From positions 1 to 54,167 of the forward strand of contig JAKORG010000037.1 of assembly GCA_029777945.1 (NCBI GenBank): a stretch of 54,167 nucleotides of DNA. The letters are read 5' to 3'. Of the stretch, positions 1,703 through 18,357 are shown piece by piece (the stretch's first letter is position 1; each line of letters begins with the position of its first letter). The translations under genes and the position numbers were made by a program. The notes beneath the pieces were generated by a model that was not told where the DNA came from, made no database searches, and saw only the letters and a program-made list of their open reading frames with translations. The DNA comes from Deltaproteobacteria bacterium (GTDB lineage Bacteria; Desulfobacterota; Syntrophorhabdia; Syntrophorhabdales; Syntrophorhabdaceae).

Positions 1703-1981
1703 TCACCTCAAAAATATCATAACCCCATCAGGGACCCTGTCTCCGCAACCCAATACAAATACCTTTATATCCTGAGGCAGCGGGTATATCCTTATATCGT
1801 CTTCTGACTCGTTTATTATATCATTTAAATCTAATTTTAATTGCTTTAATTCCTGCCAGGTGAGCTGACAGTGAAAAACAGAATACTGTATGTGGACGCC
1901 CTTCTCCTTTAAATATTTGTAAACCCTTGCAAGGCGTCTCTCATCGGCTATGTCGTAGCAGACAAGGTAATTTGACTTCAT
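1703..1981 (-). CDS. cas2: CRISPR-associated endoribonuclease/adaptation protein Cas2 (copy B)
   Basis: A 92-residue Cas2 with the ferredoxin-like N-terminus SNYLVCYDIADERRLARVYK. The metal-binding Asp follows the first strand at D10, and the conserved QYSVFHC segment follows the first helix. It partners Cas1 in the spacer integrase. It lies 15 bp downstream of the degenerate cas1 (1997-2857), and a second cas2 lies upstream at 3907-4188. The two Cas2 proteins differ clearly in sequence outside the core motif, so this is not a recent duplication. No key residue is missing. Confidence 0.93.
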   Translation of the reverse strand: MKSNYLVCYDIADERRLARVYKYLKEKGVHIQYSVFHCQLTWQELKQLKLDLNDIINESEDDIRIYPLPQDIKVFVLGCGDRVPDGVMIFLR

Positions 1982-1996
1982 AAGGATAAATCCACC

Positions 1997-2857
1997 CTAT
2001 GTTATCTTAATCTTTGTCTCAGGTAGTGAGCGAATGTATCGCATGATTTCAAAAAGACCATCTAACACATTGTCAATGAGCCTCTGGGTGAGCTTTTTCT
2101 TATTTTCAAACCTCTGCACCACATTTCTTAGGCCCTCTTCGGTGAGTCTTAAGCCAGTTGAGCTATGTATGAGATAATCATTTGCCTTATCTATCTTAAA
2201 AAACTGAACTGTTTGCATATCTGCCTCAGGCTCCATAGCATAGAAAATGTCGAGGGCCATACCAAAATTATACCTTCTGTTGTATATACCTATATGGGGG
2301 TCAAGGTTTGCCAAAAGTATGCTCCTTAATATCATCTCATTTAGATAATTAGATATAATGGAGTTTACACAGCTCCATCTCTTCTCAGATACAGAGACAT
2401 ATCTTTTTATAAAGTCAGAATAATCCATTTCCCTGAAACCATTGGTTCTGAATATAGCACCTACCTTTTTTGATAGTTTTGTTACCACCTTTAACTGAAT
2501 CTTTCTTCTCTCTGATATAAGCCACTGCCTGTATTTCTCCACCCTTTCCTCATGGACGAGGATAGATTTCTGCTCTTCATAGTGAGAGTTTAGGTTGTGA
2601 TTATAAGGGATAGTGAGTGCTATTTCATTGCCCTTTTTATTCAAGAATGTAACGGGGATATTGTTATCTGTAAAAAGGGTAATGGTGCCTGCATCAAGCC
2701 TTACATTCCCCATGATTATCACATGACCTATGAGCCTTGCAGGGATGCGCCAGCCTGCCTTACCATCCTCTTTTACCCATATGGAAGGCCCATCTCTTGT
2801 AACCACAAGGCCTTTTTTCTCATTCAGATAGAGTGTCCTGTTCAATAAATGCATCAT
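1997..2857 (-). CDS. cas1: Divergent Cas1 paralogue with degenerate active site (copy B)
   Basis: A 286-residue Cas1-family protein. The beta-rich N-terminal domain is recognisable (RTLYLNEKKGLVV, then HVIIMGNVRLDAGTI and NNIPVTFLN). The C-terminal helical domain keeps LDPHIG and ALDIFY. In canonical Cas1 the metal ligands are Glu, the His of G-F-x-H, and an Asp/Glu pair. Here the His position is N193 (GIYN); D203 is present, but the residue three positions later is Tyr rather than an acid. E174 may be the first Glu, though its spacing to LDP is one residue longer than in the neighbouring Cas1. The start overlaps the end of cas1 copy A by 38 bp and has AGGGA upstream. It may be a structural, inactive partner in a mixed integrase, or a decaying copy. 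Confidence 0.85.
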   Translation of the reverse strand: MMHLLNRTLYLNEKKGLVVTRDGPSIWVKEDGKAGWRIPARLIGHVIIMGNVRLDAGTITLFTDNNIPVTFLNKKGNEIALTIPYNHNLNSHYEEQKSILVHEERVEKYRQWLISERRKIQLKVVTKLSKKVGAIFRTNGFREMDYSDFIKRYVSVSEKRWSCVNSIISNYLNEMILRSILLANLDPHIGIYNRRYNFGMALDIFYAMEPEADMQTVQFFKIDKANDYLIHSSTGLRLTEEGLRNVVQRFENKKKLTQRLIDNVLDGLFEIMRYIRSLPETKIKIT

Positions 2858-3854
2858 ACTCGTTCCCTAATATCGTTTTTGCAAGGGCCCTTACCTCATG
2901 GACAAATAATGGCCTTTTTGTTTTTGCCCACCCTTCATATAATGGATAAAACCTCTCTCTGCCTGTCTTTTTCAGGTAACATCCTGGTCTTTCTCTGTCC
3001 TTTGAAAAGTCTCTTACAGTGAAATGACGCTCTCTAAATATACCCCAAACGAATCTATCCACATCCTGCCTGAATAGCTCTACCATGTCACAGGCAAGGG
3101 ATTCCCTGCCATATTCAAACTGGTGATAAAACCCTATTGTTGGGTCAAGCCCGATTGTTTCTATTTCACGAACCATTTCATAATGCAAAAGTGTATAGCA
3201 CAACGAGAGCATGGCATTTACAGGGTCTTCAGGTGGCCTTCTGTTTCTGTTTTTAAAGTTCAAGGATTCCGGGAAGAGTGCAGTATAACCAGTAAAGTAA
3301 GCCGAGGCAGCGCTACCCTCATAACCCCTTAATGTCTCCATTAGAGTTTCAGGCTCTTTATTTAAATTCCCTATTAAACCATTCTTTATTCCTAACAGCT
3401 TCTCATTTATTTTGTCTATGGTTTGAATGGAAGATGTTAAAGGAAAACGCAAATCTGGACGATGGGCAAGCCCTTCATTTAAGAAATCAAGCTGGTTCTT
3501 TATCTTTTTCATTATAAGGTCTAAGGAAAATTCAAGGGGAAAGGATTGTCCAATCGGTCCATTTGATAAGGATTTTTCATACTGTTTTATCCTCAAAAGC
3601 CCATTGTTGTGGAGTCTGCCGTGCAGCATCCCACGAAACCTCATCCTTCTGCCGGATAAAAATACGACCGAAATATTCTTATCAGCAAGCCTGTTTAATA
3701 CAGATGCTTCTAAGGTTACATTTCCGACAATTATCACCCTTTTGAGTGGGGCTATCGGCACCATGCCCTCTCTTTTGTCTTGAGTGTAAAAGGCAAGGGC
3801 ATTATTATCAAGCCTTACACAAATATCTTTGCGGTCAATATAAAGTGTTCCCAT
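2820..3854 (-). CDS. cas1: CRISPR spacer integrase Cas1 (copy A, canonical)
   Basis: A 344-residue Cas1, the catalytic subunit that integrates spacers at the leader end. The C-terminal domain shows the full active site: E226 in LLHYEM, H244 in GLDPTIGFYH, and D256 and E259 in SLACDMVELFR. The RGYEGSAASAYF motif before it is also typical. The N-terminal domain carries KRVIIVGNVTLEA and ISVVFLSGRRMRFRG. It follows cas2 copy A by 52 bp and overlaps cas1 copy B by 38 bp, so the four adaptation genes look co-expressed. The 52-bp gap holds a degenerate word-like repeat (AGTAAATAGTAG). Confidence 0.96.
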   Translation of the reverse strand: MGTLYIDRKDICVRLDNNALAFYTQDKREGMVPIAPLKRVIIVGNVTLEASVLNRLADKNISVVFLSGRRMRFRGMLHGRLHNNGLLRIKQYEKSLSNGPIGQSFPLEFSLDLIMKKIKNQLDFLNEGLAHRPDLRFPLTSSIQTIDKINEKLLGIKNGLIGNLNKEPETLMETLRGYEGSAASAYFTGYTALFPESLNFKNRNRRPPEDPVNAMLSLCYTLLHYEMVREIETIGLDPTIGFYHQFEYGRESLACDMVELFRQDVDRFVWGIFRERHFTVRDFSKDRERPGCYLKKTGRERFYPLYEGWAKTKRPLFVHEVRALAKTILGNEYDAFIEQDTLSE

Positions 3855-3906
3855 AATAACACCTGTTAATAGTAAATAGTAGATGGTGAATGGATACTGT
3901 CCATTT

Positions 3907-4188
3907 TCATCCTATATAAAAATATGCAGGGTCATGGGGTTGAACAGCTATGCCAAGTGTGTGCGTCCTGCTTCGACCATCCATTGTGAATATGTGGATA
4001 CGGTCAAACTCTTCATTTATAATCTCCATTAAGGCCTCTTTTATATAGCCTAATTCCCCTTCGGTTAAAAAGCACTCGTATACAGATTTCTGGCCGCCTG
4101 TTGAATAACCTTTTAAGAAATCGTGCACTTTAGCAAGTCTTCTCTCATTAGATATGTCATAGGCTATAAGGTATAAGGTTCTGCTCAT
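3907..4188 (-). CDS. cas2: CRISPR-associated Cas2 (copy A)
   Basis: A 93-residue Cas2 with LYLIAYDISNERRLAKVHDFL at the N-terminus, carrying D10, and GGQKSVYEC after the first helix, both Cas2 signatures. It is the first gene of the adaptation group on the minus strand and lies just upstream of the canonical cas1, its natural partner. AGAAGGTGATTT gives a plausible ribosome-binding site before the ATG at 4188. The 75 bp upstream, to the end of the lipoprotein gene, show no clear terminator, so it may be transcribed from the lipoprotein promoter or from one I cannot place. Confidence 0.95.
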   Translation of the reverse strand: MSRTLYLIAYDISNERRLAKVHDFLKGYSTGGQKSVYECFLTEGELGYIKEALMEIINEEFDRIHIFTMDGRSRTHTLGIAVQPHDPAYFYIG

Positions 4189-4716: not shown

Positions 4717-4745
4717 AAAGAAACATTTCTGAAACGTTTCTGTTT
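4717..4745. repeat. Hairpin-forming tandem palindrome, copy 1
   Basis: Two tandem palindromes, GAAACATTTC and GAAACGTTTC, spaced by CT. A 23-nt segment of the minus strand can fold into a ten-pair stem (one G-U pair) with loop CAG, followed by TTTTGATG. It starts about 8 bp after the csx3 stop. An almost identical copy with the A and G swapped is at 15400-15428. It could be an AT-rich intrinsic terminator, an operator, or a dispersed repeat. Confidence 0.6.
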
Positions 4746-10636: not shown

Positions 10637-11086
10637 TTAATCTGCTCCACCATAAAATTTATGATATGCTACAATAGCCTCTATAAATGAAAGTAATTTT
10701 TTAAAGTCAGCATAACTTTTGCCAGCTCCTGCAATTGCAGGTTGAAGTACTTCCATTAATGGCCTAACTGATTGATTTCTACCTGCAGCGTATGCTAATT
10801 TAGGCTTCAAAAGCACAACCTGATCTTCTAAAAAATCTTTACCTTTATTAAACTGTACATCAAGCTTTCTGATTCCGTCTAAAAACCTTCTTATCTGAGT
10901 TGTTTTAAGGCCTGTATCTTTAAGGTGCTTACCCAACTTTTCTGCTACATCCACTAAAGAGTTTGCTGGAAGTTTTGAAAGGCCATCAGATTGAAACTTG
11001 CTAATCTCTTCTCTCAAATTCTTAACAAGGGCATTTGCATCCCCTTCCGAAGAACCTTTCTTCTTATGATAAAAATTACCGTTCAT
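10637..11086 (-). CDS. csm2: Type III-A small subunit Csm2
   Basis: A 149-residue, mostly helical protein, the small subunit that lines the crRNA-target duplex. Diagnostic segments are TTQIRRFLDGIRKLD, VVLLKPKLAYAAGR and the C-terminal FKKLLSFIEAIVAYHKFYGG. The start overlaps the end of cas10 by 11 bp, and csm3 follows after 22 bp. Length and motifs are normal for Csm2; the first 20 residues are basic and likely disordered. Confidence 0.94.
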   Translation of the reverse strand: MNGNFYHKKKGSSEGDANALVKNLREEISKFQSDGLSKLPANSLVDVAEKLGKHLKDTGLKTTQIRRFLDGIRKLDVQFNKGKDFLEDQVVLLKPKLAYAAGRNQSVRPLMEVLQPAIAGAGKSYADFKKLLSFIEAIVAYHKFYGGAD

Positions 11087-13541
11087 CCTCTTTACCTCCT
11101 TTCCTCATAAGCATTAAAATTATCAGAGTAGCTAACTCTGTAATCTTCCATTCCTTTTCATTTGAGTTCATAATGGCATCATTGAATTGCATCTTTATTT
11201 CTGGTTCATGGGTCCCAATGCGTGCCCTCGATAACAAATAGGCAGCCTTCGGCAACACCAATACTCCATCTTCATTAAACCTTCTTGCAAGGGCAAGTAA
11301 TCTATAGAAGAAAGTCTTTGGCAATTTCTTTTCATCAATCCTGAAATATTTTTCTCCCTGAATAAGAAACTTTTCAAAAATAAATACTCTCTCCTTTAGT
11401 CTTTCCACATCAGGCCATCTCAGTGGCTTTCCTTTAAAAAAGGTTATGGCATTTTTTCTGGCCTTTGTCTCATTCTCCTCCTTAAAGTTCTTTGCTTCTT
11501 TTTCAGCGTTATCTGCCTCCCTTGCATACAGATAAATAGGATATTTATTGTGGTTTATTGAGATTCCACCTGATATTGTAATGAATGGATTACCCGTGTA
11601 TTTTTCAAAATAATTCCTTATATCAATCCCTGCTTCCATTACATCAAGCCAGTGGCCAACTATAAATAGGTCGTCACCTCCTGAATAAACTATGGAAAGC
11701 ATCCTATCGTTGTAGGTAGCTCTATCTGCAATATTGGCGTGAACAACAACACTGTTTTTATAATTACTGCTTACAATCATATTCAGATAGAATTTAAAAA
11801 AATCATTTAGCGCCCTGGATATGGATGCCATCCTTGAAAAGGTTCGATGTTCAAGAGGGACTGCTTGTGAAAATATCTTTCCCAAACTATCCACATCCAT
11901 CCTCAAAACTGCAAGCCTATTAATCCCAAAAACATCAGAGGCATCTGAAAGTTCTTTCAAATCTCTGTGCTGGTAGATACCAATAGGCAGAAATATAGAG
12001 CTAGGGTGATAATATTTTTCTACATCAAGGCTATTTATGATGTATACCTTTTTTGCAAGCCTGTCCATATCGGGGTTTCGCTTAGATAAAACATAGTATG
12101 AATTTCCAATGATAAGTGTTTTTTCACTCACTTCATTGTAATCTTTTTCATCAAAGCTATAGATGACATAGTCTTTCGATTTGGAAGCTTCTTTTAAAGC
12201 ATTTCCCAGCTCATATTGAATACTACAGGGTCTACACACATGTTCATATATCTGTTCGCTTCCACTAAAAACAGGTTCAAGAGGGAGATCCTCTCTGAAA
12301 CATACCTCACAATATCTTGTTAAACAATCATTATGGGGCATTGAAGAAGTAATAATATCTTCGAGTCTTTCATTCCACTTTTTCTTTTTTGACTCTTCCA
12401 GTTTTTTTGAAAGTTCTGGCCATAAATCTTGGGAGTTTTGAAAGGCATCTGGATGAAACTCAACTGTCTCTAAGTTCAAAAAAAGACTACCGCTAAATTG
12501 TTTAAATAAAAGGTCATTTATCTCCTTCTTTACATTTTCAATGGTTACCTTTGCTTCAGCAGTATTATAAGAAAGTATATAAAAAGACCCGCCACCGGAA
12601 AATATGATATTGCATCTTGTGAGTTTAAGACGTTCTATAATCTCTGAAACGATATGCTCAATCAAAAATTCTACATAAAATGATCTTCCTTTTAAAGATT
12701 TTAATGCACCCTTTGAAGTTATTGTATAAATAAACTTTTGAATTCCCGAAATATCTCCACCTATTAAAAGATAAGGTCTTTTATCTTTGGGCACATTTAA
12801 TATTTCATCCTTTAAAAGTTCATTTTTAATCCATTTTGCTGAAAATTCTTTACTGTAGTAGTGATACATACAGCCTGCTATTGCTGCCGTTAATTTAAGA
12901 TGGTCAAAAAGGGAAAGATCAGGGTGCTTATCTTTTATTTCCTCTTTCTTTAAACCATCGTAAATCCTCATGGTTATAGAAGGGATATTTTTAAGATGTT
13001 TTTCAATAAGCATCAGCAAAAAATTAATAGAACTTTTATTTTCAGGTATATGAGAGTTTAGATCTTCTTCAAATTCAGAAAGTATTTGTTCATAGTCTTT
13101 TCTTGAACATGATGGTTCTTCAGTAAGCGTAAAAGGAATGCCATCTGACTTAAGGGGAAGATAAGTAATGAGCGGCTTTTTATTTGTATCTAAAGGATTA
13201 TTTACTCTGCTAAATGGAGAGGCCATAGCAATCTCTGAATGCCATTTACCTTCTTCGAGTTTCTCCTTATCTTTCCTTTCTTTAGATGCGAGATTGTCTG
13301 ACTGATACCAAATAAGACCCAGGTTATTGTTTAATGCATAGTCATCGTCCTTTGTATAATGATGGGCAATAGCGGCAAGCTTTGCTGGATGCTTTTGAAA
13401 ATGCGTTTCCAGCCATTCGTATCCCCACTCTGTATGTTTTTTTGATGTTGGATTATTGTTCGCCCTCTGGACAACCTTTCCTATATCGTGCAATAATGCC
13501 CCTAAGACCACAGTTTCAAATTCTTGTTCATTAAATGACAT
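11076..13541 (-). CDS. cas10: Cas10/Csm1, HD nuclease and cyclic oligoadenylate synthase
   Basis: An 821-residue large subunit of the type III-A complex. The N-terminal HD domain shows VVLGALLHDIGKVVQR, with the HD pair near residues 18-19, and AIAHHYTKDD further on. The first palm-like domain has IGGDISGIQKFIY and FSGGGSFYIL. A zinc-ribbon region carries CEVCFRE and CRPC. The second palm domain has the synthase motif YSGGDDLFIVG. Both catalytic sites are intact, so ssDNA cleavage and cyclic oligoadenylate synthesis are expected on target RNA binding. It is the first gene of the csm operon, with AAGGGGGTTTAG before the ATG. The upstream 75 bp hold an inserted repeat. Confidence 0.97.
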   Translation of the reverse strand: MSFNEQEFETVVLGALLHDIGKVVQRANNNPTSKKHTEWGYEWLETHFQKHPAKLAAIAHHYTKDDDYALNNNLGLIWYQSDNLASKERKDKEKLEEGKWHSEIAMASPFSRVNNPLDTNKKPLITYLPLKSDGIPFTLTEEPSCSRKDYEQILSEFEEDLNSHIPENKSSINFLLMLIEKHLKNIPSITMRIYDGLKKEEIKDKHPDLSLFDHLKLTAAIAGCMYHYYSKEFSAKWIKNELLKDEILNVPKDKRPYLLIGGDISGIQKFIYTITSKGALKSLKGRSFYVEFLIEHIVSEIIERLKLTRCNIIFSGGGSFYILSYNTAEAKVTIENVKKEINDLLFKQFSGSLFLNLETVEFHPDAFQNSQDLWPELSKKLEESKKKKWNERLEDIITSSMPHNDCLTRYCEVCFREDLPLEPVFSGSEQIYEHVCRPCSIQYELGNALKEASKSKDYVIYSFDEKDYNEVSEKTLIIGNSYYVLSKRNPDMDRLAKKVYIINSLDVEKYYHPSSIFLPIGIYQHRDLKELSDASDVFGINRLAVLRMDVDSLGKIFSQAVPLEHRTFSRMASISRALNDFFKFYLNMIVSSNYKNSVVVHANIADRATYNDRMLSIVYSGGDDLFIVGHWLDVMEAGIDIRNYFEKYTGNPFITISGGISINHNKYPIYLYAREADNAEKEAKNFKEENETKARKNAITFFKGKPLRWPDVERLKERVFIFEKFLIQGEKYFRIDEKKLPKTFFYRLLALARRFNEDGVLVLPKAAYLLSRARIGTHEPEIKMQFNDAIMNSNEKEWKITELATLIILMLMRKGGKEDER

Positions 13542-13561
13542 CTAAACCCCCTTTAGATTTA

Positions 13562-13614
13562 AGAAGACAGAACACAGACCGTTCCGCTTTGCGGAACTGA
13601 CAGAAGACAGACTG
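13562..13614. repeat. Left inverted terminal repeat with hairpin
   Basis: Contains AGACAGA-like 7-bp units, ACAGACC at 13574-13580, a perfect 7-bp stem hairpin GTTCCGC-TTT-GCGGAAC at 13581-13597, then TGACAGA at 13598-13604 and AGACAGA. On the opposite strand the same ACAGACC...TGACAGA core recurs at 14026-14046. The segment ends two bases before the stop of the four-helix-bundle gene. Confidence 0.8.
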
Positions 13615-13615
13615 T

Positions 13616-14005
13616 TCATTTTATATACCTCTCTTTTATTATGTTGCTTGATTCCAGGCTCTTAGAAAAACCTGTTATCATTGCTGCAATTTCATCGGCT
13701 TCTATAGCTAATTTTTCAAATTCTGTTTCACTCAAATATTTTAATTTAAGAGCTATCTCAAGGCAGGCCATTAGTTCATACGCCGACCGCAAAGATATCT
13801 CGAGAAATCTTTTGAATTCTCTTTCCGAAGAATTGCCACTTCCTTCTGCAATATTAAGCGCTATTGATATGGCTGCTCTCCGAATCTGGCTTGTTAATCC
13901 ATGCACTTCTTCTTTTGGGAAGGACCCTGTGGTTTTATAGATTTCTGTAGAATATTCTATGGCCCTTTTATAAACTTTTAGATTTCTGAAATTATGCCTC
14001 ATCAT
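13616..14005 (-). CDS. Four-helix-bundle protein (23S rRNA IVS / S23 family)
   Basis: A 129-residue protein of the family named after ORFs in 23S rRNA intervening sequences; related bundles include the Avd proteins of diversity-generating retroelements. Signatures are NFRNLKVYKRAIEYSTEIY, FPKEEVHGLTSQIRRAAISI, NIAEGSGN and FKRFLEISLRSAYEL. The biochemical role is unknown; Avd proteins bind nucleic acid. Two ATGs in tandem (14005 and 14002) are preceded by GAGGGCAG repeat units, so the flanking short tandem repeat itself serves as the ribosome-binding site. It is not inside rRNA here but between cas10 and a DUF2130 gene. Confidence 0.93.
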   Translation of the reverse strand: MMRHNFRNLKVYKRAIEYSTEIYKTTGSFPKEEVHGLTSQIRRAAISIALNIAEGSGNSSEREFKRFLEISLRSAYELMACLEIALKLKYLSETEFEKLAIEADEIAAMITGFSKSLESSNIIKERYIK

Positions 14006-14063
14006 CTGCCCTCTGCCCTCTGCCCTCTGTCAGCGAAGCGGTCTGTCTTCTGTCTTCTGTCCC
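14006..14063. repeat. Right inverted terminal repeat of 7-bp units
   Basis: On the plus strand three CTGCCCT-type 7-bp units are followed by TCTGTCA (14026-14032), the spacer GCGAAGC (14033-14039), GGTCTGT (14040-14046) and two more CTTCTGT units. The reverse complement gives ACAGACC-spacer-TGACAGA, matching the left end in order and polarity. The stop of the DUF2130 gene (14030-14032) falls inside the core. Confidence 0.8.
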
Positions 14064-15340
14064 TCATTCCCCTTTAGGGCCTTAAGTTCTAATGCCTTTA
14101 GCTCCGGGAGTGTGCTACCAATAATCCCCTGCAGGCTCCCATACATACGGCTCGTGTTCCGCACCACCTTCTCAATCTGCTTTTCCCTTTTTGCCCATAT
14201 CTTCTCCATTGCCCTTTTTTCAGCGTCGAGGTCATTTTTCATTGAGACAAATGCTTCAACAATACCTTCTATCTGCTGGCGGAATTCAGGACCTGATAGA
14301 TATTCATAGAGCATCTCCATCTTGCCTGACTTTCCCTCTATGGCAGTCTTTACCTTTGCCACCTCAATAAGCACCATTCTTAATGCCATTGCAAGGGAAG
14401 TGGCAAGGGTATAGTCTGTAACCCATACACTGTTTATCTGTCCTATTCCTGTGATATCTTTTGGCATTGTTACTGATACGATTACTGCAATGTCTGCCTT
14501 TGCATTCCTCTGATCTTCCTTTAGTTTTTCAATCCAGGAGTCGCTCCAAGCCTTTGTCCTTTTCGATTCCCATATGATTGTGCCGCATTGCTGACCATAG
14601 GGTATGCAAACCCTCTGAATAACATCTGCACCCCTCATGCCTTTAGGAACAGGTATCACCTCATCGTGGGGGAAATTTTTTTTTAATAACCCTTCAAGTT
14701 CAATCTCCAATACCTCGCCTTGCATTTGCTGGGAGCCCTGTTCTGCCTTACGCTTTAACTCTTCTATCTGGGTTTTCATTGCCTCTATGAGCTTATCCTT
14801 TTCAAGGTCCTTTAATCTGTGCTGTTCTGAAATCCTCTTCTCTATATCCTCTTTCAGTTTCTCCCTTTCAGCATCGAGTTTTCGAGCAACCTCGAGCTCC
14901 AAATTCTGTTTCTCCTCTTCGAGTCTTCTCTTTTCCTTACGGAGTGTGAGCTCAAGGTCTTTAAACTCCTTTATCTTGTTTGCCTTCTCGGCAAGTTCAT
15001 CCTTTAGCGTTTTTATCTCCAGCGCCGATTCTTCGGCTACCCTTTTTCTTATGGAATCTTCTATTTTTTTCTTTTCCTGCTCGAGACGTGTGTGTAAATC
15101 CTTCTCGAGCCTTTCCTGCATTTTTGCAATCTCCTTTGCCTGCTCCTCTTTTAGCCTCTGCAATTCCTTTTCTTTTTTGATAATGTCATCTTCCTTTGAT
15201 TTGAGCTCCAATTCCTTTTTGTTAAACTCATCCCTTAATTCCTGTTGAATCTTTTCTTTTATCTGGTGGGTGAGTGCCTCATCGAGTGGAATCTCACGCT
15301 TACAATAAGGACATATGATTTTTGTGATGGTCTCATTCAT
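14030..15340 (-). CDS. DUF2130 coiled-coil protein with nuclease-like core
   Basis: A 436-residue protein. An N-terminal zinc-ribbon-like segment, KIICPYCKREIPLDEAL, is followed by about 180 residues of charged coiled coil. The DUF2130 domain then shows GMRGADVIQRV, IIWESKRTKAWSDSWI and KLKEDQRNAKADIAVIV. The GAD...ESK arrangement looks like a PD-(D/E)xK site (Asp, then Glu-x-Lys), so a nucleic-acid-cleaving role is plausible but unproven. I start at the ATG at 15340, preceded by AGAGG; a GTG at 15361 lacks a ribosome-binding site. The last residues, GQKTEDRPLR, are encoded by the adjacent inverted repeat, so the native C-terminus was probably altered. Confidence 0.88.
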   Translation of the reverse strand: MNETITKIICPYCKREIPLDEALTHQIKEKIQQELRDEFNKKELELKSKEDDIIKKEKELQRLKEEQAKEIAKMQERLEKDLHTRLEQEKKKIEDSIRKRVAEESALEIKTLKDELAEKANKIKEFKDLELTLRKEKRRLEEEKQNLELEVARKLDAEREKLKEDIEKRISEQHRLKDLEKDKLIEAMKTQIEELKRKAEQGSQQMQGEVLEIELEGLLKKNFPHDEVIPVPKGMRGADVIQRVCIPYGQQCGTIIWESKRTKAWSDSWIEKLKEDQRNAKADIAVIVSVTMPKDITGIGQINSVWVTDYTLATSLAMALRMVLIEVAKVKTAIEGKSGKMEMLYEYLSGPEFRQQIEGIVEAFVSMKNDLDAEKRAMEKIWAKREKQIEKVVRNTSRMYGSLQGIIGSTLPELKALELKALKGNEGQKTEDRPLR

Positions 15341-15399
15341 AATATTTTTCCTCTTTTTCACGCATATTATTATCCTACTTTATCTGTCCATAAGCCATT

Positions 15400-15428
15400 A
15401 AAGAAACGTTTCTGAAACATTTCTGTTT
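15400..15428. repeat. Hairpin-forming tandem palindrome, copy 2
   Basis: Tandem GAAACGTTTC and GAAACATTTC with the same CT spacer and flanks (AAA before, TGTTT after) as the copy at 4717-4745. The minus strand folds into a ten-pair stem with loop CAG, followed by TTTAATGG. It lies 63-85 bp upstream of the DUF2130 ATG and about 80 bp past the stop of the CARF gene. Confidence 0.6.
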
Positions 15429-15507
15429 TTTTAGCTCTCCTACTGGCATTTAAAAACAGACTCAAATCTATCACCAATCCTTTATCAAAGATGAAGTCTG
15501 TCATCTA

Positions 15508-16677
15508 TTATCTGCCCTCTATCTTTATCTTAGCCTTTTCAACCCTTATACCATATAAACTCTCACCGTAACGTTTCATACACGATATTTTGCATAAGGG
15601 TTTTAATGCCTCATCCTCTAAGTGCTCATTTATTGACTTGTTTATTTTACTTATGTTCTGCCTTATGAGTTCAACGGACATACCGTCCTTCCATTTCCTT
15701 ATAAACTCCTCTGTGCGCATGGGGCTATTCTTATAGACTATGCTATGGTCAAGAGCCATTTCCTCCACGTATTGCCTTGAAGTTAGACCGCTTTTTATTG
15801 TTACAAAGCAATCAGTGCACTGTTCACAGTAATTTCTTTCAGGATGTTGACAGTGGTTCAGCTTCTGTTTCAAAAAGATATTGTAAAAAACGATAAGATA
15901 TGGAAGCATATTTATAATATTTGAGCCTATCTTAATGTAACGCTCAGACAGATTTATGATGAGTTCAGGCTGAACTATTGCCGTATCTATTGTGCGCTGA
16001 CCTTCAAGGACAAGTTCACGGAAGTCCTCTTTCTGAAATGATATCTTTCCGCTGAGCCTTATAAACGGTAGCTCTGCAAGGTCTATCACTGCATCATCTG
16101 TGTTTAGTGTAATAGGTCTGCCATCTGGCCCTTTCCCTTCAATGACCCTATTCTTTTTTGGTTTATAGAAAAACTCAGGGTTTGATTCGAATTTAGGGGT
16201 GACAAGGACATGGTATAGCCTGTCTTGAGGTCGACCGAATAATTGGAGCGCTGCACCAAGATAGAAACTCATGGTTTTTCTGCCACCTGCTATAGAGCAG
16301 TGAAGTCTCACTGATGGATCCTTTGCCTTTTCCCTGATAAGAGAAGTAATAATATTACCTATGAGTTCATTTTCTTGTTCGTTCCTTATATCATCAATCT
16401 CGTTATTATATTTATCTTTTGGTATAACAAAAGACTCCTCTGTAATACGTATCTCCGGGATACCCAGTTCAGAATACATTTCTTTGAGTATTCCGTTATC
16501 GATGAGGGATGTTTTTATAATATTTTTTCCTATCAAGGTTGTTATGATGAAAATTTCGTGGGGATAAATGGGTGGCTTTTTCTGTGATAAGGCATAGATT
16601 GTCTCTGTGATTATCTGAGGGGTTGTTCCAGCAACAAAAATAAAAAGCTCTTTATAGGCTTCTTTGATCTTTACCAT
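15508..16677 (-). CDS. CARF-domain CRISPR-associated protein, NE0113-like family
   Basis: A 389-residue protein with an N-terminal CARF Rossmann fold: FIFVAGTTPQIITETIYAL (residues 12-30), EIFIITTLIG, and the ligand-loop motif CSIAGGRKTMSFYLGAAL (127-144). This matches the NE0113-type CARF proteins of type III loci, some relatives of which act as ring nucleases. A later cysteine group (C276, C284, C287, C290) could bind zinc. I see no HEPN R-x4-6-H or PD-(D/E)xK motif, so degradation or sensing of cyclic oligoadenylate is more likely than a toxic effector role. A perfect TATAAT lies at 16687-16692, only about 10 bp before the ATG. The last codons fall in a CTGCCCTCT-type repeat. Confidence 0.85.
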   Translation of the reverse strand: MVKIKEAYKELFIFVAGTTPQIITETIYALSQKKPPIYPHEIFIITTLIGKNIIKTSLIDNGILKEMYSELGIPEIRITEESFVIPKDKYNNEIDDIRNEQENELIGNIITSLIREKAKDPSVRLHCSIAGGRKTMSFYLGAALQLFGRPQDRLYHVLVTPKFESNPEFFYKPKKNRVIEGKGPDGRPITLNTDDAVIDLAELPFIRLSGKISFQKEDFRELVLEGQRTIDTAIVQPELIINLSERYIKIGSNIINMLPYLIVFYNIFLKQKLNHCQHPERNYCEQCTDCFVTIKSGLTSRQYVEEMALDHSIVYKNSPMRTEEFIRKWKDGMSVELIRQNISKINKSINEHLEDEALKPLCKISCMKRYGESLYGIRVEKAKIKIEGR

Positions 16678-16870
16678 TATAATTTGATTATATTGTTTAT
16701 CTTCAACTCTTAATCAAATCAATGCGCAATAAGAGCTATCGCCTTTAAAAAAAATTACCTATTACCTAAATATTTTTTATTATTGCCTCCCCTTGAGTTG
16801 CTTTGATTGTATATTCCAATGTTAACTTTTTTATTTTTAAAATACAAATATTTTTTTAAAAAATTTATGT
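16678..16870. other. Non-coding AT-rich gap
   Basis: Together with the repeat that follows, this forms a 313-bp stretch without a gene. It contains a consensus TATAAT on the minus strand at 16687-16692, a probable promoter element for the CARF gene, with TTGATT-like hexamers further upstream at non-ideal spacing. The rest is homopolymer-rich, and I see no RNA gene or terminator. Confidence 0.5.
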
Positions 16871-16960
16871 GTCCTGTCTCGTTAGTCTCGTTTATCTCGT
16901 TTATCTGGTTTATCTCGTTTATGGCGTTTATGGAGTTTGTTGCGTTTATGGCGTTAATAA
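16871..16960. repeat. Degenerate 9-bp tandem repeat, left end of second unit
   Basis: About nine consecutive units of a 9-bp word close to TCGTTTATC, drifting to GCGTTTATG towards the right and ending GCGTTAATAA. An inverted relative lies at 17203-17247. The two read inward in the same order, including a distinctive GxGTTTGT unit in each, so they form inverted flanks around a four-helix-bundle remnant. Confidence 0.8.
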
Positions 16961-16990
16961 TGTTCTATGTTCGAGGTTCAACATTCGATG

Positions 16991-17323
16991 TTATTTCTTT
17001 CTATTTGTTTTTTTTAAATTCCGAATGAAGCCATTAATGAGATTAGTTAATTTAAAACATCTTTCAAGTATTTTGTTAAAAACTTTTTCATCGATATAAT
17101 TTATATCTAATGCAGTGTAACTTAAGCTTTTTACCTCAGAGACAGAACCTCTTGCAATTACTAAAAATTGCTGGTCTGTCAGGCTGTAATCTTTCTTGAA
17201 CTCGTTAACGCTACAAACCCTATAAACGCTATTAACGCTATAAACAAGTTGTCGTGGTTGATTATCCTCGAATTTATCTATTTTCTTTTTAAACTCCTTT
17301 GTAAATAATGCCTCTGAAATCAT
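16991..17323 (-). pseudogene. Truncated four-helix-bundle gene fused to repeat sequence
   Basis: The open frame encodes 110 residues, but only the last 60 or so look like the S23/IVS four-helix family: QFLVIARGSVSEVKSLSYT followed by YIDEKVFNKILERC and LINGFIRNLKK. The segment SLTDQ just before QFL resembles the GLTDQ of helix two, so the stretch between them in intact relatives, including the AEG motif, seems deleted. Residues 27-42 (VYSVNSVYRVCSVNEF) are encoded by the 9-bp inverted repeat at 17203-17247, and the first 26 residues come from outside it. This is best read as a decayed copy whose frame was opened by repeat sequence. Confidence 0.65.
17203..17247. repeat. Degenerate 9-bp tandem repeat, right end of second unit
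   Basis: Five units of a 9-bp word on the minus strand (TTGTTTATA, GCGTTAATA, GCGTTTATA, GGGTTTGTA, GCGTTAACG). They resemble 16871-16960 in inverted orientation. The repeat is read through as protein in the overlapping frame. Confidence 0.75.
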
Positions 17324-17388
17324 ATTTATGGTGAACCTCAGATATTAGTGTATTAAGTTTTAAATCATTCTGCCGATAAAAGAATAAG

Positions 17389-18357
17389 ATGAAGGTAGAT
17401 ACATCTGTAATAAAATTATCCTCAAATTATAATGCCTCATACAGAGAAAAAAATACCCGTATCACAATAACAAGGCCTGTTATGCAGGATACAGTGGATG
17501 TATCGCAATTAGCTATGGTTAACCTGAAGGCTTCAGATACAAAACAGGCTTCTGAAATAGAAAAGGACTATATGACAGAAAAGCAGAGGATTGCCCGTTT
17601 TCTCATAGAACTAATTTTCGGCGTAAAGTTAAACAAAATTATAGTTAACAAAACACAGGAAGAAACTGCCAAAAATCAGAATAACAACAGCTCACAACAA
17701 TATGAAATCATAAATATAGATTTTGAAGAGAAATTTGAAAAAGAGGATGTTGATTTTACAGCAGAAGGTATGGTTAAGACCTCAGATGGCAGATTATATA
17801 ATTTCAATCTGTCCATAAAACTAAACCGCAGCCTCTATGAATCAAATGTATCAATAAACAGGCAGCTACAGGGTAAAGACCCTATTGTCTTAAATTTGTC
17901 TGGTATATTTAAAGGCTTATCTGAAAAGACTATAGATTTTGATATAGATGGAGATGGAATTACTGAAAAAATACATTTTGTTTCAGAAGGTAGCGGTTTC
18001 CTTGTAATAGATAAAAACAACAATGGAAAAATAGATGACGGCAAGGAGGTTATTGGAGCAACTTCGGGCAATGGCATAAAGGAACTGAAAGATTACGACA
18101 GTGATGGCAATGGATGGATAGATGAAGGCGACCCCATATTTTTGAATCTTTCTGTCTGGGAAGAAGACCCATTAGGCAATAGTATTATAACTCCTTTAAA
18201 GGAAAAAGGCATTGGTGCAATCTCCCTTGCATCCGCCGTAATTCCATTTCAGATTAAAAATACAAAAGGCAACTACGGAGAGATACTGGAAACAGGTGTC
18301 TTTCTCAATGAAGATGGTAAGGCTTCTGCCTTTCATAGAATAAATCTCTTTGTTTAA
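17389..18357 (+). CDS. EF-hand/dockerin-like calcium-binding protein, function unknown
   Basis: A 322-residue protein with no signal peptide or membrane segment that I can see. The first third is polar and Asn/Gln-rich. From about residue 184 come three Asp-rich loops: DIDGDGITEK, DKNNNGKIDDGKEV and DYDSDGNGWIDEGD. A VGAISL-like C-terminal part (KGIGAISLAS) follows. The combination GSGFLVIDKNNNGKIDDGKE...GNGWIDEGDP is common in large secreted or VCBS-type proteins of Gram-negatives, where the loops bind calcium. Here it stands alone as the first plus-strand gene after the CRISPR region. Partners and export route are not visible. Confidence 0.8.
   Translation: MKVDTSVIKLSSNYNASYREKNTRITITRPVMQDTVDVSQLAMVNLKASDTKQASEIEKDYMTEKQRIARFLIELIFGVKLNKIIVNKTQEETAKNQNNNSSQQYEIINIDFEEKFEKEDVDFTAEGMVKTSDGRLYNFNLSIKLNRSLYESNVSINRQLQGKDPIVLNLSGIFKGLSEKTIDFDIDGDGITEKIHFVSEGSGFLVIDKNNNGKIDDGKEVIGATSGNGIKELKDYDSDGNGWIDEGDPIFLNLSVWEEDPLGNSIITPLKEKGIGAISLASAVIPFQIKNTKGNYGEILETGVFLNEDGKASAFHRINLFV

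Follow-up and report, generated by a model that had tools for sequence, protein, structure and literature searches.

The closest described relative of the element reported here is the intervening sequence (IVS) in the 23S rRNA of Coxiella, which carries an S23 open reading frame (ORF) preceded by GACAGAT/GACAGAA heptamers, and whose terminal inverted repeats form a stem of 28 bp (PMC4990558). The same paper credits the suspicion that such sequences are mobile to Burgin 1990 and Ralph and McClelland 1993. The S23 family, PF05635, has been noted as Avd-like (PMC10053308). We analyzed a stretch of 54,167 nt (contig JAKORG010000037.1 of assembly GCA_029777945.1, from a member of the Syntrophorhabdales; hereafter the window), in which an S23/IVP gene is the sole gene between two inverted composite arms of 7-bp units at 13562–14061. 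We estimate at roughly two in three the probability that this unit is a copy of a mobile element of minimal content, which has S23 as its only protein and resembles the repetitive extragenic palindromic (REP) sequences with their REP-associated tyrosine transposases (RAYT), but lacks a Y1 transposase.

The S23 gene (13616..14005, minus strand) encodes a four-helix-bundle protein of 129 residues and is recognized by PF05635 (E 2e-36) and TIGR02436 (E 5e-35). Downstream of it lies the left arm, in which outer 7-bp units (13562..13580, plus strand, AGAAGACAGAACACAGACC) match 14032-14058 in inverted orientation, a perfect hairpin, GTTCCGC-TTT-GCGGAAC, occupies 13581..13597 (plus), and inner 7-bp units (13598..13617, plus, TGACAGAAGACAGACTGTTC) run up to the S23 stop codon. 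The right arm consists of an inner array, (TCTGCCC)x3.6 followed by CTGTCAG (14005..14033, plus), and of a CGAAGCG linker with an outer (TCTGTCT)x2.9 array (14034..14061, plus); Tandem Repeats Finder (TRF) places the two 7-bp arrays at 14005-14029 and 14042-14061. Read on the gene strand, the upstream arm is GGGACAGAAGACAGAAGACAGACCGCTTCGCTGACAGAGGGCAGAGGGCAGAGGGCAGATGATG, of which the inner array provides a GAGGG ribosome-binding-like sequence, and the downstream arm, from outside inward, is AGAAGACAGAACACAGACC-[GTTCCGC TTT GCGGAAC]-TGACAGAAGACAGAC. The arms are 89% complementary over 27 nt (13562-13588 and 14032-14058), and a second inverted match of 14 nt (13599-13612 and 14041-14054) is perfect. 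One flank compared with the reverse complement of the other gives a local score of 39, where the maximum was 30 in 3000 dinucleotide shuffles and 29 when the same geometry was placed at 213 other positions of the window. A sequence-only reading of this DNA had described the composite repeats, the hairpin of one arm facing a short spacer in the other (merely CGCTTCG on the right), the absence of any other gene inside, and the position of the unit between cas10 and a DUF2130 gene; coordinates, sequence and surroundings all proved correct. The PF05635 gene alone is encoded, with no recombinase or transposase within the element (the single Y1 match in the window's genome lies elsewhere), and no Rfam family was found in 12500–17600 of the window.

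Arms of this kind are a feature of the S23 family. We searched 46 genomes of the window's order (the order set) for PF05635 and found it in 35, with up to 16 copies per genome. When the 250-bp flanks of about 100 S23 genes were scanned by TRF (period 5–14, score at least 40), tandem repeats were present upstream in 50% of cases and downstream in 59%, compared to 3% and 10% for control ORFs of the same loci. A period of 7 was commonest, followed by 8 and 9. In 49% of 88 order elements, the upstream flank of a gene matches the inverted downstream flank of that gene (score at least 34), whereas cross-element comparisons reach 1.5% and 252 control ORFs 0.4%. The genes of another small family, MNT (PF01909), in the same genomes gave inverted flank matches in 0 of 27 cases and repeats in 0 of 54 flanks. 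A diverse set of 84 loci, mostly of other phyla (Bacteroidota, Cyanobacteria, Bipolaricaulota, Cloacimonadota, Desulfobacterota, Clostridia and Planctomycetota are included), was gathered with a single protein query and is biased to one subfamily; here the inverted match was seen in 55% of elements at a score of at least 34 and in 70% at 30 or more. The corresponding values were 1.7% and 2.6% for cross-element comparisons and 1.3% and 1.9% for displaced positions.

The unit sequence is peculiar to each element: AGTGAAT, GTATATC, GGGGTCG, GAACCGTTG and AGACAGA are examples. The arms of two elements are alike only if their proteins are above roughly 70–80% identical, and the median score between upstream arms falls from 102 for proteins at least 90% identical to 45 (80–90%), 25 (70–80%) and a background of 15 (below 60%). 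Since the arms match within an element and differ between elements, the units of both arms must change jointly. On the coding strand, C makes up only 11% of the upstream arm, and G 33%. A universal end motif, AAAGRC, was also considered; it is found upstream in 35 of the 88 order elements (its complement in 10) but in only 8 versus 5 of the 84 diverse loci, and was dropped.

Several observations indicate that the units have moved. Elements with 90–94% DNA identity occupy unrelated sites in different genera (L047 in genome G026, L055 in G004 and L063 in G023), and L054/L055 and L110/L113 are further near-identical pairs at unrelated sites. A gmd-fcl-like junction, judged by protein sequences, contains four S23 elements in four genera, with 27–41% amino acid identity and different repeats, and is empty in G035 (L095:9950-10250); more empty sites are present at L095:1050-1330 and L095:7000-7300. 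At another site, between flanks about 85% identical, four congeners have a GTATATC element and a fifth (L124, G037) has an unrelated one with 42% amino acid identity. The DUF2130-cas10 junction of the window has no S23 gene in G021, G033 and G041, being short and without arrays in G033 and holding other heptamer arrays in G041. The reverse is seen at the cas2-cas1 junction of the window (3854..3907, minus strand), which has a heptamer-like remnant and no S23 gene, while a complete S23 element lies exactly there in G033. No match to S23 was found in phages.

The copies are placed in operons in a regular manner. Among elements lying between two codirectional genes, 56 of 59 in the order set are codirectional with them (56:3, p 1e-13), as are 55 of 63 in the diverse set (55:8, p 1e-9). 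Many copies start where the preceding gene stops, as in a gene ending GATGA that is directly followed by AGGCAGTGAATAG. The window element begins directly behind the position equivalent to the native stop codon of the DUF2130 gene (14030..15361, minus strand, PF09903), its upstream neighbor in the cas operon. The end of this ORF (EGQKTEDRPLR before the stop) is encoded by the repeats, as the reverse complement of 14034..14061, where relatives end in KALKGE; such insertions alter host proteins at their termini.

The survey that the sequence-only reading had proposed gave both of the results it looked for: S23-family genes outside rRNA have inverted short tandem repeats on both sides in many phyla while control genes lack them, and empty sites exist in relatives, several of them without gene and without arms. 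The suggested minimal mobile element, encoding the helix bundle and no other protein, is therefore well supported. The accompanying term REP-type fits in part, because the element has no Y1 transposase of its own and is not a REP in the strict sense; its likeness to REPs resides in the dispersal of gene-less repeat arrays.

Two-flank DNA searches that were aimed at clean empty sites yielded such gene-less derivatives instead. In relatives, the search with the AGTGAAT element returned many sites that retain both ends and the first S23 codons and share one internal deletion (at least seven sites in G027, three in G026, and others in G004 and G024). A second deletion type is represented by five sites in G022, and the two families together make up about 20 sites in five genomes. 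Since the same deletion junction recurs at unrelated sites, the deleted form itself must have multiplied, and in this respect the derivatives are like miniature inverted-repeat transposable elements (MITEs), which are non-autonomous. The sequence-only reading held that flanking repeats shared unchanged by strains with and without the gene would speak against mobility. Arms without a gene were indeed seen at some sites, but the recurrence of one internal deletion at many sites makes gene-less derivatives the better explanation. Short units of arms only also occur beside full elements with the same unit (L071:1030-1160, L073, L085:400-545 and L077). The derivatives are oriented in the sense direction in 11 of 11 cases, or in 10 of 10 if L345, the weakest match, is left out. 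Gene-less copies being equally biased, the bias cannot serve S23 expression only; it stems either from the insertion process or from selection that acts on the arms.

Dispersal was further seen in genome-wide repeats, which were counted by pattern search only. GTATATM x3 occurs 12–61 times in each of the four genomes with a GTATATC S23 element. Three congeners that lack this element have 1, 1 and 9 occurrences, and two other genera and a reversed-pattern control have 0. Across the 46 genomes the number of AGTGAAY arrays follows the S23 copy number (rho 0.64, p 2e-6), and none is present in any of the 11 genomes without S23 (Fisher p 0.02), neither test being corrected for phylogeny.

The structure model of the window S23 protein (predicted local distance difference test 97) has four helices and matches XCC0516 (2gsc, template modeling (TM) score 0.95), which is pentameric, BT_0352 (2rld, 0.82–0.86) and Avd (4dwl, about 0.8). 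It also matches the diversity-generating retroelement (DGR) complexes 8ub7 and 8ube (TM 0.8), and bAvd is a weak sequence match (E 2e-4). Residues Q36, S43, N47, E50 and E73 are invariant in 27 members. The ratio of nonsynonymous to synonymous substitution (dN/dS) between S23 copies is 0.05–0.28, and the protein is therefore under purifying selection.

How could the units spread, and what part does S23 play? An RNA-level route, in which the arms pair in the transcript and RNase III cuts the resulting stem, as in the 23S rRNA IVS, to free the S23 message from the operon, with spread through RNA by a reverse transcriptase (RT), would suit the strong sense bias, even of gene-less derivatives, and the fold that S23 shares with Avd, the partner of the DGR reverse transcriptase. 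However, no RT was detected in G004, G027 and G033, which have 16, 14 and 10 S23 genes, and no RVT_1 was found in the window's genome, either beside S23 or elsewhere. RT number is unrelated to S23 number or array number, and we rejected RT as the partner. Mismatches between the arms, read on the transcript, comprise 100 G.U and 140 A.C pairs; G.U is not favored, slightly the reverse, which speaks against selection on an RNA stem, and we consider this route rather improbable. The arrays and arms might instead be a family of their own that owes its movement to a Y1 transposase (IS200/RAYT-like) or to host repair, with S23 as inert cargo. Gene-less copies do multiply, some arms contain hairpins (window 13581-13597), and S23 copy number tracks the number of Y1_Tnp genes (rho 0.57, not corrected for phylogeny). 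Against inert cargo, S23 is maintained by purifying selection, no other recurrent cargo gene was noticed between such arms in a look that was not exhaustive, and AGTGAAY arrays track S23 better than Y1 number (rho 0.32). G023 has 43 array matches and 8 S23 genes with no Y1_Tnp found. An RT in the same genome is not needed and a Y1 transposase not strictly so, and we regard the cargo explanation as unlikely.

S23 could also be a working part of a type III-A operon of the clustered regularly interspaced short palindromic repeats (CRISPR) system, with regulatory repeats. Three cyanobacterial plasmids do carry S23 genes within cas operons, G033 has one that separates cas2 from cas1, and '23S rRNA IVP' was listed among CRISPR-linked proteins (PMC10910872). 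Yet three relatives have the DUF2130-cas10 junction without S23, and most S23 elements are elsewhere, for example at the gmd-fcl-like junction or by ribonucleotide reductase genes, with the same arms; we therefore abandoned a CRISPR accessory function as the leading explanation and hold it to be very unlikely. The empty cas junctions suggest that the link between S23 and CRISPR arises by insertion. Although 7-bp arrays are common in some bacteria (PMC4679880), unrelated microsatellites inverted by accident or slippage are refuted by the shuffles (0 of 3000) and by the controls, in which 1–2% have matching arms where between half and two thirds of elements do; the likelihood of this explanation is negligible.

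We thus favor a mobile element. That S23 units form a class of mobile elements is very probable, and whether S23 itself is required for their movement is in our estimate evenly balanced. Because RT is dispensable, Y1 is not strictly needed and the arm mismatches speak against a selected RNA stem, we propose that S23 binds the arrays and that catalysis comes from outside or from an enzyme still unrecognised. The ends are the two inverted arrays of 7–9-bp repeats, with a unit sequence peculiar to each element. Most probably, an S23 ring would bind its cognate arrays, hold both ends together as a single strand or transcript, and deliver them for copying or insertion to an enzyme of the host or one not yet recognized. 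Copies land in operons, between the stop codon of one gene and the next gene and nearly always in sense, with no visible target duplication. Full copies produce gene-less derivatives, which retain both termini and increase in number, as well as arrays of their unit scattered over the genome. The matched arms, the dispersal, the derivatives, the sense bias and the selection on S23 are observed, and a role of S23 in array binding and movement is inferred from them. S23 and its repeats would evolve as a matched pair, like RAYT transposases and REPs, and the 23S rRNA IVS of Leptospira and Coxiella may be copies that landed in rRNA.

Several points weigh against this view of the window unit. Neither binding of the arrays by S23 nor movement was observed, and no catalytic residues were recognized in S23. 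No target-site duplication is visible at empty sites or derivative copies, where divergence is high; at the empty sites this divergence also leaves the exact ends unreadable. S23 number also rises with Y1_Tnp number. The AGACAGA-type unit has no other occurrence in its genome, so the window copy shows no dispersal there. About one third to one half of S23 genes lack scored arms and may be older copies or another kind. The genomes are species representatives, many of them metagenome-assembled.

A second, degraded S23 gene is present in the window at 16991..17323 (minus strand; PF05635 E 5e-10, positions 51-106 only; TRF) with a 9-bp-repeat family of its own, of which an array (TCTCGTTTA) flanks it at 16877..16955 (plus strand, TRF). 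Part of its ORF (VYSVNSVYRVCSVN) is encoded by 9-bp repeats at 17207-17245, and arrays can therefore invade genes and become coding sequence. The 9-bp unit has 44 matches at about 15 sites of the window's genome, including that of the other S23 gene (C63), and the reversed-pattern control has 0.

The downstream neighbor of the window element is cas10/csm1 (11076..13541, minus strand; Pfam Cas10_palm2, Csm1_B and HD). S23 genes were seen in the cas operons of the cyanobacterial plasmids L205, L211 and L212 and of L080 (G033), in the arrangements cas6-S23-cas4, cas10-S23-cmr3 and cas2-S23-cas1; CRISPR operons may be favored landing places. At 1-325 the window contains the end of a CRISPR array with repeats GTCGCAATCCCTTCTAAATGAGGTCAGGTTTCCAAT, adjoining two cas1-like and two cas2-like genes (1703-4188) that constitute a doubled adaptation module. 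Near-identical 22-bp sites, AGAAAYGTTTCAGAAAYGTTTC, lie at 4720-4741 and 15403-15424, each between genes of the CRISPR locus (0 expected by chance), and are a possible operator of the type III locus. Neighboring genes draw their first or last residues from arrays at L051 (start of the downstream gene), in the window (14030-14061) and at L058/L056. Hairpins such as CCCGCATTAAGCGGG break some arrays in L068, L089 and L318, as GTTCCGC does in the window, and may represent further small repeats that have nested there. The element of L077 is flipped relative to its flanks when compared with L082/L094 at the same site, through either inversion between the arms or independent insertion. A gene family in the downstream flank of L063 is scattered over G022, G026 and G027 in dozens of copies.

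S23/IVP genes are widely annotated, as 'four helix bundle protein', without an assigned function; matched arms, movement, reduction to gene-less copies and the seeding of arrays give the family a role. The work offers a possible origin for the rRNA IVS, a question from the 1990s, as well as for a large share of the heptamer repeats in bacterial genomes, and a reason why retroelements could have recruited an Avd-like protein. It also advises caution, since S23 genes in CRISPR operons may be insertions and not new CRISPR parts. A pertinent question that can be tested is how a protein without a recombinase fold moves DNA. More broadly, and at slightly less than even odds, we suggest an altogether new class of element in many phyla, in which an Avd-like four-helix bundle without known recombinase chemistry would drive the spread of its own 7–9-bp arrays. 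Protein and arrays would form matched pairs, insertion would follow the transcribed sense strand at stop codons, and the rRNA IVS and many 'heptamer repeats' would be debris.

Among known systems, insertion sequences with DDE transposases or serine or tyrosine recombinases differ from the window element in that it has no recombinase gene. The DGR accessory proteins Avd and bAvd share the S23 fold, but the window's genome has no RVT_1; template and variable repeats were not searched for. The heptameric repeats of cyanobacteria and Beggiatoaceae (short tandemly repeated repetitive sequences, STRR, and TAACTGA) are likewise intergenic arrays of 7-bp direct repeats, but are not described as paired inverted ends of an S23 gene, and no mention of S23 was found in the TAACTGA paper. 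RAYT (TnpA-REP) systems with REP/REPIN sequences likewise have a single protein gene enclosed by inverted repeats; these repeats recur without the gene many times per genome, in intergenic positions, and vary together with the protein between lineages. S23, however, is a four-helix bundle and not a Y1/HUH transposase, and its units are 7–9-bp tandem arrays rather than GTAG-tagged palindromes. Gene-less copies of the flanking repeat are present for other S23 elements, including the 9-bp family, while the window's own unit is found nowhere else.

The nearest likeness is to the 23S rRNA IVS of Leptospira and Coxiella burnetii (PMC4990558), which also has an S23 ORF as its only gene, terminal inverted repeats, sense orientation to the host transcript and a length of about 430–500 bp; the Coxiella IVS has nearly the same heptamer unit as the window element. 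The latter lies between DUF2130 and cas10 and not in helix 9, 25 or 45 of 23S rRNA. In the open-access literature, with subscription papers and preprints mostly uncovered, we found no account in which S23 genes figure as elements spread over genomes and bounded by inverted arms of tandem repeats; the statement of the sequence-only reading that none was established holds to that extent, but not for the layout itself, which the Coxiella IVS already has. Unlike the rRNA IVS, the S23 elements described here lie between protein genes, change their unit from element to element, and are multicopy, with gene-less derivatives and dispersed arrays. What is new is thus a widespread non-rRNA form of an element whose layout was already known from the rRNA of Coxiella.
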